Source: Gammaproteobacteria bacterium (GTDB lineage Bacteria > Pseudomonadota > Gammaproteobacteria > Pseudomonadales > Pseudohongiellaceae). Taken from it: 64,000 nucleotides of DNA. The stretch covers positions 90,993 to 154,992 of the forward strand of contig JAGYKB010000004.1 of the NCBI GenBank assembly GCA_018401885.1, read 5' to 3'. A model generated the notes under the pieces. That model had not been told where the DNA came from and did no database searches. It was given only the letters and a program-made list of their open reading frames with translations. The position numbers and the translations under genes are program-made. Shown in pieces: positions 138-5,953 of this stretch. Positions within the stretch are counted from its first letter, which is position 1. Each line of letters opens with the position of its first letter.

Positions 138-164
138 TAAAGTCAAGACACGCACTGTCGATTG
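138..164 (+). promoter_or_regulatory. Candidate sigma-28 (FliA) promoter for the first flagellin copy
   Basis: TAAA (138-141), N15, GTCGATTG (157-164); resembles TAAA-N15-GCCGATAA, about 145 nt upstream of a flagellin ATG. Confidence 0.4.
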
Positions 165-307
165 GCCCTTCGTGTTTGAGTGAAAGCAAAAACCGGTTAT
201 CAAAACCACACTTTAAGAGTGAGACAACCGGAAACTCACAAGCGATTTAGAGAACGGTTTTAAACCGCAAACTAAATCAAAACTAATAACTCAATGAGGT
301 CAGAATC

Positions 308-1701
308 ATGAGCGTTATAAATACCAACATCTCGGCGACAATTGCGACAAACGCAATGGCTCGCAACGAACGTCAAATGTCGACAGCCATGGAGAGACTC
401 TCTACTGGCCTACGAATCAACTCAGCGAAAGACGACGCAGCCGGCCTGGCAATTTCATCTCGCATGAAAGCAGTCGTAAGCGGTTTAACGATGGCATCGA
501 AGAACGCGAACGACGCAATCTCGATGTTGGAAGTAGCCGAGGGCGCGACACTCGAAATCAGCAACATGCTAATTCGTATGCGTGAGCTTGCCGTGCAGTC
601 AGCGTCGGGCACTTACTCCGATTCAGACCGCGATGCACTTGACCTAGAGTTTGGTGCGCTTATGACTGAGATGGATCGTATCGCCAGGAATACAACATGG
701 AACACCATGTCGTGGTCTGCCAAAAACATAAATAATGCAACTATGACCAAATCAGTTCTGACATTCAGCTTGCGCCGATGCCTGGCAGAAGATAACCCGA
801 ACAAGGCGTGGGTTCCTTCGGTTGCGGCTGATATGCAGGTCGGAATGCTGGATGGGCATGACATGAGGTGCCGCGCGCTGAAGCAAAGTCCACGCGCAGC
901 TGAAGCAGATGCTTTGATTCGCGGAATGCTACTGAAAAGACGGCGATAACTTTCGCTGCATTAGCCAATACCCAACCGTAATCATTGATGGACTTACGTT
1001 GACTGCGGCGGCTGATGGTATGACTGCCCAAGAAGTAGCAGAGGCGTTTTCGGGCATAGATAAAACTACCACTTCATCCGCGATTTGCAATAACCAGCTG
1101 CTTGATTTTTGCACTTTGCATCGCACACAGCGTATCTTCACGACGACGCACTTCCTTACCAACGAATTTCAGCTACGAGCGTTTTTTCTTCTCCTGTACA
1201 TATCGTCTGGTCACAGTAACATTTACAAGCTCGAGACTTTTAATGACGTAGGTAACCTCAGGAAGTACCACTACTGTTACAGGGCCTAACGCGATAACTC
1301 CAGATACCGCTGGATCTGCCGGAACAGCGCCTGTGGCAAACGAATCAGCCTTCGGTGACGCAGTTCTCTACTGGAACAAAAACGGTACCCCAACGGCGAT
1401 CAATATCGACACGGTAGCTAACTCAGAGTTCGCCATCGACCAGCTCGACAAGGCAATCCTCGGTGTTGCAACTGAGCGTGCTAAATACGGTGCATTTATG
1501 AGTCGTCTCGAGCACAGCTCTGATAACTTGTTGAATGTTGCGCAGAACACCGACCAGTCACGTAGTCGCATCGAAGACGCTGACTATGCAGTCGAAACGT
1601 CTGAGCTCGCACGCACGCAGATTATCTCGCAGGCGAGTACTGCAATGCTTGCACAGGCGAACCAGTCTAAGCAGTCGGTTCTCACATTGCTCCAAGGCTA
1701 A
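308..1701 (+). pseudogene. fliC: Decayed flagellin: intact N- and C-terminal regions, frameshifted central region
   Basis: 308-949 encodes MSVINTNISATIATNAMARNERQMSTAMERLSTGLRINSAKDDAAGLAISSRM...; 1333-1701 encodes the flagellin C-terminus (FAIDQLDKAILGVATERAKYG...ARTQIISQASTAMLAQANQSKQSVLTLLQG). Central homology to the intact copy recurs in other frames (DGLTLTAAADGMTAQEVAEAFSGI at about 990-1060). Confidence 0.85.
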
Positions 1702-1776: not shown

Positions 1777-1857
1777 GAGAAAAGCAACAGGTAGCTGGTT
1801 GAAATAATGAAAACCGGAAACCAATCGAAGCACTGTAATCGCAAAAGGAACGTTAAA

Positions 1858-2262
1858 GTGAGCAGCAATAACTCTAACAACTCTGTCATCACTTGCGCGA
1901 GCGCAATAGCACTCAATTTGCGCCAGAGAATGCAATTAGTGACAAGAATTTCCTTTGCGACTTCAAACAACTCAACAAGCAATTCTGCAGCCCGACTATC
2001 CGTATTAAAGAATCGGCTGCACAAATCCATCCTACTCTTCGGTCGCGATAACAAGACTGACACAGTTTTGGCGACTAAGTGCTCTCGTAAGTCCAACTCT
2101 GACTCAGAGCTAACCAAGGCGAAGGGAGAGCGGACGCGCGCTAAATTCAAACTACATGAGTATGTCAATAAGGCATTTCAGCTTGCGCGCGTAGGAATAA
2201 TTTCACTAACAAGGAGCGCTACGTTGGCAACTGCCAATCAGGTGAGACAGGGTGTCATTTAA
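1858..2262 (+). CDS. Short, highly diverged flagellin-like protein (about 134 aa; GTG start) or in-frame deleted flagellin remnant
   Basis: GTG preceded by AAAGGA. N-terminus (V)SSNNSNNSVITCASAIALNLRQRM...RISFATSNNSTSNSAARLSVL aligns with flagellin MSVINTNISATIATNALIRNERSM...RLSTGMRINSAKDDAAGLAI; C-terminus EYVNKAFQLARVGIISLTRSATLATANQVRQGVI aligns with DYAIETSELARTQIISQAATAMLAQANQAKQGVL. Confidence 0.5.
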   Translation: MSSNNSNNSVITCASAIALNLRQRMQLVTRISFATSNNSTSNSAARLSVLKNRLHKSILLFGRDNKTDTVLATKCSRKSNSDSELTKAKGERTRAKFKLHEYVNKAFQLARVGIISLTRSATLATANQVRQGVI

Positions 2263-2359: not shown

Positions 2360-2423
2360 ATTTGGCCCGAGGCAGAAGGGGCAAGACCCCTGACCTCCTT
2401 ACCCCGGTTGCCTCGGGCCAAAT
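2360..2423 (+). repeat. Structured hairpin element, copy 1
   Basis: Perfect 15-bp inverted repeat ATTTGGCCCGAGGCA (2360-2374)/TGCCTCGGGCCAAAT (2409-2423); loop contains AAGACCCCTGACCTCCTTACC; inner GGGGCAAG/CTTACCCC. Confidence 0.85.
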
Positions 2424-2443
2424 ATTTGCCGGGGTGTTTTTTT
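2401..2443 (+). terminator. Candidate intrinsic terminator overlapping hairpin element copy 1
   Basis: ACCCCGG (2401-2407)/CCGGGGT (2429-2435), then T7 (2437-2443). Confidence 0.4.
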
Positions 2444-2594
2444 AGAAAGGCTGAGTACTACGATGCCTGAAAAAAGAGGTTGGGGAAGAGTGAGTGACGG
2501 AAGTTGCCACATAAATTAAACGACTAATGCGAGTTGGGCACACAGGCTGCCGACCAAGAATTTCGCTAGGCGGGATGATCCGCTCAGCAACCGA

Positions 2595-2656
2595 ATTTGG
2601 CCCGAGGCACAGGGGTAAGACCCCTGACCTCCTTACCCTTAAGTCTCGGGCCAAAT
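2595..2656 (+). repeat. Structured hairpin element, copy 2
   Basis: Perfect 12-bp inverted repeat ATTTGGCCCGAG (2595-2606)/CTCGGGCCAAAT (2645-2656); inner stem GGGTAAG (2613-2619)/CTTACCC (2632-2638); loop ACCCCTGACCTC. Confidence 0.85.
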
Positions 2657-2787
2657 ACTTACTGATCGTTATGCGATAAGTAGGCAAAAAATTGGGTAGA
2701 GGACAGGACAGGGGGGATGAACGGGGCGACGAAATAATAGGTGCGTCTACCCATTCACAATTTTTACTAAATAAAGAGGTCTTTCCT

Positions 2788-4149
2788 ATGAGTGTTATTA
2801 ATACAAATATTTCTGCGACTATCGCGACCAATGCATTAATAAGAAACGAACGATCAATGAGTACCGCCATGGAGCGGCTGTCGACTGGCATGAGAATTAA
2901 CTCGGCCAAAGACGATGCTGCAGGCCTAGCGATCGCTTCCCGGATGGGCGCGATGGTGAGCGGGCTAGAAATGGCATCTAAAAATGCAAACGACGCTATC
3001 TCGATGCTGGAGGTTGCTGAAGGTGCGACGCTTGAAATTAGCAATATGCTAATTCGTATGCGCGAGCTAGCCGTGCAGTCGGCGTCTGGTACTTATTCAG
3101 ACACAGATCGCGATGCGCTTGATCTAGAATTCGGTGCGCTGATGAGCGAAATTGATCGTATAGCCAAGAATACGACCTGGAACACTATGTCGATTCTAAA
3201 TGGCGGTAACGATGCCAATAATGCTACAACGACTAAGACCGAGCTTAATATCCAGCTTGGACCAAACGCGTCGCAAACGATGGCGCTCGAGTTTAAGGCC
3301 TGGGTTCCTTCGATTGCCGTTGATATGCAGGCGCTAAATGCTGATGGCTACAACCACGTCGATGGTAAGTCTGCCTTTAGTCAAAAGGCAGATGGAATTG
3401 ATGCGCGCATCTCCGGAGTATCGGGGGCTACTACTGAAAGCTCAACTGTGACTTTTGGTGCCCTGAGTGCAAATGAACAAGTAACGGTTGGTGGACTGAC
3501 GCTTACGGTGAACGCCGGATATTCTCTAACTGGTACAGAGGTTGCGGGAGCATTTAAAAATTTAGATGCGGGGGATGGAGGAGCGGCAGATAGTGTTAGT
3601 CCTGCACGCTATACATTTGGAGGCACACTGGACGCTAATTTCGACTCTGCTACCACTAATACTGCAAATACGCTTGTATTCACAGCAATAACAGCGAAAG
3701 CAAATACAAATATCGACGATTTGCAAATCACTGGCAAAGCTTCCCAAGTCATCACCCAAGGCTCTGCTGCTGCAGTGACCGAGGCTAAGAATGAATCCGC
3801 CTTCGGCGACGCAGTCCTCTATTGGAACAATGGAGGGACACCCGAGGCTATCAATATCGCAACGGTAGGCAATTCCGAATTCGCCATCGATCAGCTGGAT
3901 AAGGCAATCCTAGGCATGGCAACTGAGCGCGCAAAATACGGCGCCTACATGAGCCGCTTAGAACACAGCTCCGACAACCTACTGAACGTTGCACAAAACA
4001 CCGATCAATCACGTAGCCGCATCGAAGACGCTGACTACGCGATAGAAACATCGGAACTGGCTCGCACGCAGATTATCTCGCAGGCGGCGACGGCGATGCT
4101 TGCCCAAGCCAACCAGGCGAAGCAGGGCGTGCTGCAACTGCTCCAATAG
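2788..4149 (+). CDS. fliC: Flagellin
   Basis: Complete N- and C-terminal flagellin domains in one ORF; ATG at 2788 preceded by AAGAGGT (the tracked ORF extends upstream to 2692). Confidence 0.95.
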   Translation: MSVINTNISATIATNALIRNERSMSTAMERLSTGMRINSAKDDAAGLAIASRMGAMVSGLEMASKNANDAISMLEVAEGATLEISNMLIRMRELAVQSASGTYSDTDRDALDLEFGALMSEIDRIAKNTTWNTMSILNGGNDANNATTTKTELNIQLGPNASQTMALEFKAWVPSIAVDMQALNADGYNHVDGKSAFSQKADGIDARISGVSGATTESSTVTFGALSANEQVTVGGLTLTVNAGYSLTGTEVAGAFKNLDAGDGGAADSVSPARYTFGGTLDANFDSATTNTANTLVFTAITAKANTNIDDLQITGKASQVITQGSAAAVTEAKNESAFGDAVLYWNNGGTPEAINIATVGNSEFAIDQLDKAILGMATERAKYGAYMSRLEHSSDNLLNVAQNTDQSRSRIEDADYAIETSELARTQIISQAATAMLAQANQAKQGVLQLLQ

Positions 4150-4231
4150 AGTAGTTAGTTGAAGGCGCGCGAGTCGCGCCTACTGAATTCGCTTGTGCCC
4201 GATCTCTGGCGAAGAGGCACAAGCAATCCTG

Positions 4232-4295
4232 ATTTGACCCAAGGCGGGCGGGGTGGGACCCCTGACCTCCTCATTCCGAGCGCCTTGGGTCAAAT
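4232..4295 (+). repeat. Structured hairpin element, copy 3
   Basis: Perfect 15-bp inverted repeat ATTTGACCCAAGGCG (4232-4246)/CGCCTTGGGTCAAAT (4281-4295); loop ACCCCTGACCTCCT conserved; three compensatory pair changes relative to copy 1. Confidence 0.85.
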
Positions 4296-4447: not shown

Positions 4448-4463
4448 TGGCACGGTGATTGCT
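4448..4463 (+). promoter_or_regulatory. Sigma-54 (RpoN) promoter TGGCAC-GGTGA-TTGCT
   Basis: Full match to TGGCAC-N5-TTGCW with GG-N10-GC spacing; 48 nt upstream of the ATG at 4512. Confidence 0.8.
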
Positions 4464-4511
4464 AAAGCTTAACGGTACTGAACGTAAATCCGGCAAAGTG
4501 GCAACCACATC

Positions 4512-5537: not shown

Positions 5538-5575
5538 AACAATTTTTTAAAAAGATCGCAAAGTAAGAGGTCATT

Positions 5576-5953
5576 ATGGAAATTTCATCAGCAGAATCCT
5601 TGCTTTCGCAGGTTCGTGACTATCAGGCAAAGATCGCTTCGGCGCGCCGTGATAACGGTGATCTTGGCTCGATTCCTTCGATCGGTGACGCCGGTCGCGG
5701 GCAGGGTGTTGACAGCGCCTCGGGCAACTTTTCAAGCCGCCTAAGTACTGCGATGGTCAATTCACTAAACGAAGTTAACTCGCTACAAGAGACGTCGCGA
5801 GTTTCACAAGAGACCTTTCAGATGGGCGGCGATATTCCATTGACCGAGGTTGTGATGAACATGCAGAAAGCCTCGCTTGCTTTTGAAGCTACCGTACAGG
5901 TTCGCAACAAGGTCATGCAGGCATACCAAGACATTATGAACATGCCAGTGTAA
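5576..5953 (+). CDS. fliE: Flagellar hook-basal body protein FliE
   Basis: C-terminal PLTEVVMNMQKASLAFEATVQVRNKVMQAYQDIMNMPV; position before fliF. Confidence 0.95.
   Translation: MEISSAESLLSQVRDYQAKIASARRDNGDLGSIPSIGDAGRGQGVDSASGNFSSRLSTAMVNSLNEVNSLQETSRVSQETFQMGGDIPLTEVVMNMQKASLAFEATVQVRNKVMQAYQDIMNMPV

Follow-up and report, generated by a model that had tools for sequence, protein, structure and literature searches.

A conserved hairpin behind flagellin genes with a loop complementary to flagellin Shine-Dalgarno sequences: a candidate 3′-UTR riboregulator

A hairpin with an invariant loop was found three times among the flagellin genes of the window, the 64,000-nt stretch of DNA analyzed here, and in nine further genomes of the same genus. 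Its loop is complementary to the Shine-Dalgarno (SD) sequences of neighboring flagellin genes. Our main reading, to which we assign a probability of about 0.6, is that the element is a flagellin 3′-UTR riboregulator: pairing of the loop would repress translation of flagellin and fliS, and tandem arrays of the complementary motif would serve as further targets or decoys. Structure, conservation, orientation, complementarity and co-occurrence can all be read from the sequences.

Flagellin is among the costliest proteins of a swimming cell, and the post-transcriptional balancing of many flagellin genes is poorly known. If the reading is correct, the element would constitute a new RNA family in which both pairing halves are readable from sequence and which would connect the 3′ end of one flagellin mRNA with the translation starts of several more.

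Three hairpins in a flagellin cluster

The first flagellin gene of the window, F1 (308..1701, + strand), is disrupted, comprising a 213-codon N-terminal part and a C-terminal part from about 1333. A consensus scan identified a sigma-28-type promoter upstream of it (138..164, + strand, C34:91130-91156; TAAAGTCA-N11-GTCGATTG), and its SD, GAGGTCAG (296..303, + strand), is exactly complementary to the loop sequence CTGACCTC. A decayed flagellin relic ORF, recognized by eye from its C-terminal similarity, follows at 1807..2262 (+ strand) and is also present in the relative G017. The intact flagellin F3 (2788..4149, + strand, 453 aa) has the SD GAGGTC (2773..2778, + strand), the complement of GACCTC in the loop. 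Further downstream are the ORF of an NtrC-type regulator, from 4512, and then fliE, fliF and fliG.

All three hairpins lie on the + strand. Copy 1 (2360..2423; outer stem ATTTGGCCCGAGGCA/TGCCTCGGGCCAAAT) is located 3′ of the relic and carries the loop ACCCCTGACCTCCT at 2386..2399, with the core CTGACCTC noted above. Copy 2 (2595..2656; loop 2620..2633) is 235 nt past copy 1 and 132 nt ahead of the F3 start. Copy 3 (4232..4295; loop 4258..4271) is 83 nt past the F3 stop. Copies 1 and 2 are thus downstream of the decayed relic, and copy 3 is downstream of an intact gene. The original prediction had placed three hairpins here, and its coordinates and strand were all correct. The loop is identical in the three copies, as claimed: the window contains exactly three instances of the 14-mer, as compared to 0.19 occurrences expected with up to two mismatches. 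Similarly, the three compensated differences between the outer stems of copies 1 and 3 were confirmed, and the description of a retained inner stem was correct in substance. The copies folded far more stably than dinucleotide shuffles, with z values of -5.3, -7.2 and -5.5 for copies 1, 2 and 3, respectively.

Copies 1 and 2 are similar to tandem pairs found 3′ of single flagellin genes in four relatives. A search of the source genome (2.62 Mb, 70 contigs) by DNA similarity found no further hairpin copies. The loop 14-mer occurs once more in that genome, by chance, within argD and without a stem or hairpin.

Two features of this region are of separate interest. The segment 308-2262 is a decaying tandem flagellin array: the reading frame of F1 breaks down around 949-1333, and the relic is all that is left of another flagellin. 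Behind copy 1, at 2404-2440, the sequence ACCCCGG...CCGGGGT followed by TGTTTTTTT is a possible terminator that would exclude the inner stem of the element; the stem in G017 is longer (ACCCCGGTA/TACCGGGGT).

Distribution of the element

The covariance-model search that had been suggested as a check was performed using a model built from nine copies, first on 137 genomes of the family and then on 392 genomes of the order. The family search yielded 20 copies in 10 genomes, all in the genus of the window; the order search added nothing beyond that genus. The one other match of the model, in G016, was rejected as a different, GC-rich palindrome, and a weak match in G118 was noise. The G016 palindrome (L092 2228-2325, G016:C22; GGGGACGGAGGA...) is long, belongs to another genus of the family, is unrelated to the element and matched the model weakly. 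When 85,462 species genomes were scanned for the exact pattern, 9 contigs matched, all from this group; two carry the title uncultured Pseudohongiella sp.

The copies proved to be associated with flagellin loci elsewhere, too: all 20 copies are in flagellin clusters, over 10 genomes, and their orientation relative to flagellin is fixed. Seventeen are downstream of a flagellin gene or relic, 59-112 nt past the flagellin stops, and the remaining three are at contig ends beside the NtrC-type gene. The relatives G017, G004 and G054 have the same hairpin behind flagellin genes. Tandem hairpin pairs about 104-107 nt apart occur in G082, G116, G122 and G124, and a locus contains up to three hairpins. 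Among 4227 Rfam families, none scored at or above the gathering threshold, the best sub-threshold matches being eukaryotic miRNA hairpins.

Conservation of the structure and the strand it favors

All 20 copies, representing 19 distinct sequences, have a fully (100%) paired outer stem of 14 bp. In these 19 rows, six outer-stem pairs are altered on both sides. Over the whole structure, 97.8% of cells are paired, as compared to 92.3% in shuffled alignments, and slid pairing registers collapse. The covariation score was above that of all 500 shuffles (0/500), so the claim of maintained pairing with covariation also holds in this larger alignment. The stretch CTGACCTCCT is invariant across copies.

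Read in the flagellin sense, the stems contain 26 G-U and 5 A-C pairs, figures that describe a bias rather than a count of independent events as the copies are related. Based on this bias, the constrained molecule is most likely an RNA of the flagellin-sense strand. Folding predictions were mixed: clade-2 copies and copies 2 and 3 of the window fold better on the plus strand, and the minus strand gives slightly better folds for several clade-1 copies. For some clade-2 copies, the predictions include an alternative fold in which part of the loop is hidden.

Complementarity of the loop to flagellin and fliS start sites

The loop sequence UGACCUC is the exact complement of GAGGUCA. Flagellin genes in the element clusters have SDs of the form GAGGTC(AG), exact complements of the loop, while the SDs of paralogues within these genomes are of the AAGGAA type. 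In a counted table of 40 flagellin entries from 10 genomes, 14 have a GAGGTC SD; all of these belong to element clusters or are truncated at a contig end (G118 and G126). The element is directly behind eight of these 14; a contig end cuts four, and two are upstream in the same array. The other 26 entries (24 distinct genes) have neither the GAGGTC SD nor the element. Fisher's test of the association gave 4e-5, a value to be read with the genes not being independent and two entries being double. The nearest relative without the element, G023 (flagellin 73% identical), also lacks the GAGGTC SD. Flagellin F1 has a GAGGTC-type SD, yet no element is directly behind it.

The survey of gene starts covered 757 predicted genes in 853 kb of the 2.62-Mb genome. 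Among these, the only ATG starts with GAGGTCA at the SD position are those of fliS, fliC (flagellin F1) and fliE. Relaxing the motif to GAGGTC added F3 and two more ATG starts outside the flagellar contig. The fliS motif, present wherever fliS was seen, is kept in G000, G017, G004, G122 and G124. The fliE motif (GAGGTCA, 5567..5573, + strand, for the start at 5576) is confined to the subclade of the window, where it marks a further candidate target.

Predicted loop-SD duplexes had energies of -10.5 to -20 kcal/mol, as compared to -4.7 and -6.4 kcal/mol for two control flagellin SDs. Ranking all possible starts by duplex energy did not single out the proposed targets (of 756, fliS ranked 11, F1 57 and fliE 200); this ranking was not discriminating because every possible start, including TTG, was allowed. 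Since the core pair GAGGUC/GACCUC is invariant, there is no covariation at the point of contact between loop and target.

The loop had been described as an anti-SD sequence, and copies 1 and 2 as containing the sequence of the 3′ tail of 16S rRNA. The complementarity to SDs stands, specifically for the cluster flagellins and fliS. A match of the loop to the 16S tail does not: the loop reads GACCTCC and the 16S tail CACCTCC, and a generic mimic of the 16S tail was rejected. The differing base is the one that separates GAGGTC from GAGGTG SDs.

GAGGTCA arrays and partner hairpins

The flagellin clusters of element-bearing genomes also contain tandem GAGGTCA arrays of 2-11 copies; the same scan with a reversed control pattern found no tandem arrays. 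Isolated double motifs in G122:C5 and G124:C7 were dismissed, being inside ORFs and consistent with chance; all other arrays were confined to flagellin clusters. The arrays are always in the sense orientation and end 42-60 nt ahead of the start codon at the second flagellin locus. Most are behind a sigma-28-type promoter (TAAAG..N11..GTCGATTG) and would therefore be inside transcripts. Two further genomes, G118 (11 units) and G126, have arrays and the matching SD; their cluster-1 flagellin runs into the end of the contig. The loop flanks match the arrays of their own clade best in two clades out of three: clade-2 loops (CCUCUGACCUCC) match their own arrays over 12-13 nt, clade-1 loops match theirs best, and clade-3 loops do not.

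In G054, G118, G122, G124 and G126, the promoter, array and leader are retained though the next reading frame has no flagellin match, and this retention suggests an RNA role for the leader. These arrangements are located at L090 2300-3200 (minus strand), L091 6380-7200, L178 3470-4430, L179 3480-4650 and L044 9800-10800; possibly, they represent decayed flagellins or non-coding RNAs.

Hairpins presenting the sense motif were also observed. In clades 2 and 3, a hairpin with GAGGTCA in or beside its loop is located in the flagellin 3′ UTR, just before the element. Upstream of flagellin in G118, G122, G124 and G126, a sigma-28-like promoter is followed by a hairpin that contains the GAGGTCA motif two or three times; that of G122 ends in a clear T-run. 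The G122 locus (L090 5206-5365, G122:C9) comprises a promoter, a hairpin with two GAGGTCA motifs in the loop region and TTTTTT, and is 5′ of the flagellin's own sigma-28-type promoter. This arrangement is probably a free-standing sigma-28-driven small RNA.

In L178 8849-8925 (G118:C40), eleven perfect tandem GAGGTCA units are present about 60 nt before a flagellin start. The variation in array copy number between species, from 2 to 11, resembles that of a phase-variable repeat. Single occurrences of GAGGTCATGGAGGTCA are found in other genera.

Proposed mechanism

The predicted link between flagellin and a cis- or trans-acting regulatory RNA is well supported by the covariation, the G-U strand bias, the strict association with flagellin in 10 genomes and the matching target sites. 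From these features, we infer repression, pairing in the cell and a decoy role for the arrays. The hairpin RNA would be either the whole flagellin mRNA or an sRNA that is cleaved off at the 3′ end. Its loop would pair with the SDs of flagellin and fliS mRNAs and so block ribosome binding or initiation, resulting in negative feedback on flagellin and fliS output. Sense arrays and sense-loop hairpins, as extra targets or decoys, would tune the amount of free loop. The least certain steps are the sign of the effect, that is, repression, and whether the RNA would act in cis or in trans.

A more elaborate version is a tentative proposal and, as a whole, somewhat unlikely: a complete RNA-only circuit in which the anti-loops in 3′ UTRs bind the SDs of flagellin and fliS and repress both genes. 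Other flagellin leaders driven by sigma-28, some of them retained ahead of reading frames without a flagellin match any more, would contribute their arrays and sense-loop hairpins as tunable decoys; flagellin mRNAs would compete for the anti-loop, with array copy number as the dial. Because of the tandem decoy-like arrays, a competing-RNA model of flagellin dosage could be tested directly and quantitatively. More generally, the patterns suggest that, in this group of marine bacteria related to Pseudohongiella, the messages for the swimming filament pair with one another as RNAs and are silenced or titrated in this way.

Alternative explanations

Stable 3′ hairpins protect abundant mRNAs. The element could likewise be a plain 3′-end structure, either an mRNA-stabilizing hairpin or a transcription terminator, that was copied with flagellin genes; its position 59-112 nt past flagellin stops and its high stability are consistent with this. 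However, a check of the copies for intrinsic terminators recognized no terminator-like hairpin: the tails, such as ATACCCATCC, are not conserved U-runs, though a few are T-rich. The lack of a U-tract directly behind the hairpin rules out a canonical intrinsic terminator. As a plain 3′-end structure would also leave the invariant loop and its match to SDs and arrays unexplained, we consider it unlikely. Somewhat more improbable is that a Csr-like RNA-binding protein recognizes GAGGUCA in leaders and that a hairpin transcribed from the opposite strand is its sponge, displaying GAGGUCA in the loop. On the minus strand, the loop is GAGGUCAGGGGU and so presents the sense motif of the SDs and arrays, several clade-1 copies fold slightly better on that strand, and sense-loop hairpins occur on the plus strand as well. 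Against this, the wobble pairs are those expected for the plus strand (26 G-U vs 5 A-C), as is the folding of clade-2 copies and of copies 2 and 3, and the orientation with respect to flagellin is fixed.

The element might instead act in DNA, as an aid to recombination or gene conversion among flagellins, as a double-stranded regulator site or, in the arrays, as phase-variation heptanucleotide repeats. The flagellin copies are tandem and in places near identical, and array copy number ranges from 2 to 11 between species. Nevertheless, the SD position of the motif, the fixed orientation of motif and anti-motif and the tolerance of G-U pairs indicate RNA, and most arrays, being downstream of a sigma-28-type promoter, would be within transcripts; a DNA-level role is thus very improbable. 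The several copies with inverted-repeat ends had also raised the prospect of a mobile palindromic repeat (REP or MITE). This was contradicted: no copy was found outside flagellin clusters in any of the 10 carrier genomes, the orientation is fixed and no target duplication was seen. The absence of dispersed genomic copies in practice refutes such a repeat, leaving it a negligible probability.

Comparison with known RNA regulators

Alphaproteobacterial anti-SD sRNAs present a CCUCC-type anti-SD sequence in a loop. They are free-standing sRNA genes in another bacterial class, and the elements described here have no Rfam match. In Escherichia coli, the FliX sRNA derives from the fliC 3′ UTR. Base pairing by this sRNA reduces fliC mRNA and flagellin; its pairing sites are within the coding region of fliC and in the S10 operon (Melamed et al. 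2023, eLife, PMC10578931). FliX resembles the riboregulator proposed here in being a flagellin 3′-UTR RNA of the sigma-28 regulon; the differences are the match of our loop to SDs and leader arrays and the presence of up to three hairpins per locus. In Vibrio cholerae, the 3′-UTR RNAs OppZ and CarZ pair with the 5′ part of their own transcript and inhibit translation (Hoyos et al. 2020, eLife, PMC7398697). Complementarity of a 3′-UTR RNA to its own transcript's 5′ part is predicted here from sequence; OppZ and CarZ are RNase E products that need Hfq and have no known sequence relation to our elements. In icaR mRNA of Staphylococcus aureus, the C-rich 3′-UTR motif UCCCCUG pairs with the mRNA's own SD and blocks initiation (Ruiz de los Mozos et al. 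2013, PMC3868564). The loop studied here, which contains CCCCUGACCUCC, would be a comparable anti-SD motif in a 3′ UTR, but icaR is a single mRNA in a Gram-positive bacterium without a multi-gene target set or arrays.

As in 3′-UTR autoregulatory sRNAs, the element has a same-strand 3′-UTR location (17 of 20 copies behind flagellin or a relic) and is complementary to its host mRNA (loop GACCTC vs SD GAGGTC in 14/14 cluster flagellins). The proposed kind of regulator is a known one, each step of the mechanism having a precedent in FliX, OppZ/CarZ or icaR. The RNA family, absent from Rfam, and the array/decoy layout are not known to have been described before; a literature search on sponge RNAs with flagellin or tandem repeats returned nothing relevant. 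Finally, inspection by eye of the region beyond copy 3 revealed a sigma-54-type promoter, TGGCAC-N5-TTGCT (window 4449-4464), just 5′ of the NtrC-type regulator.
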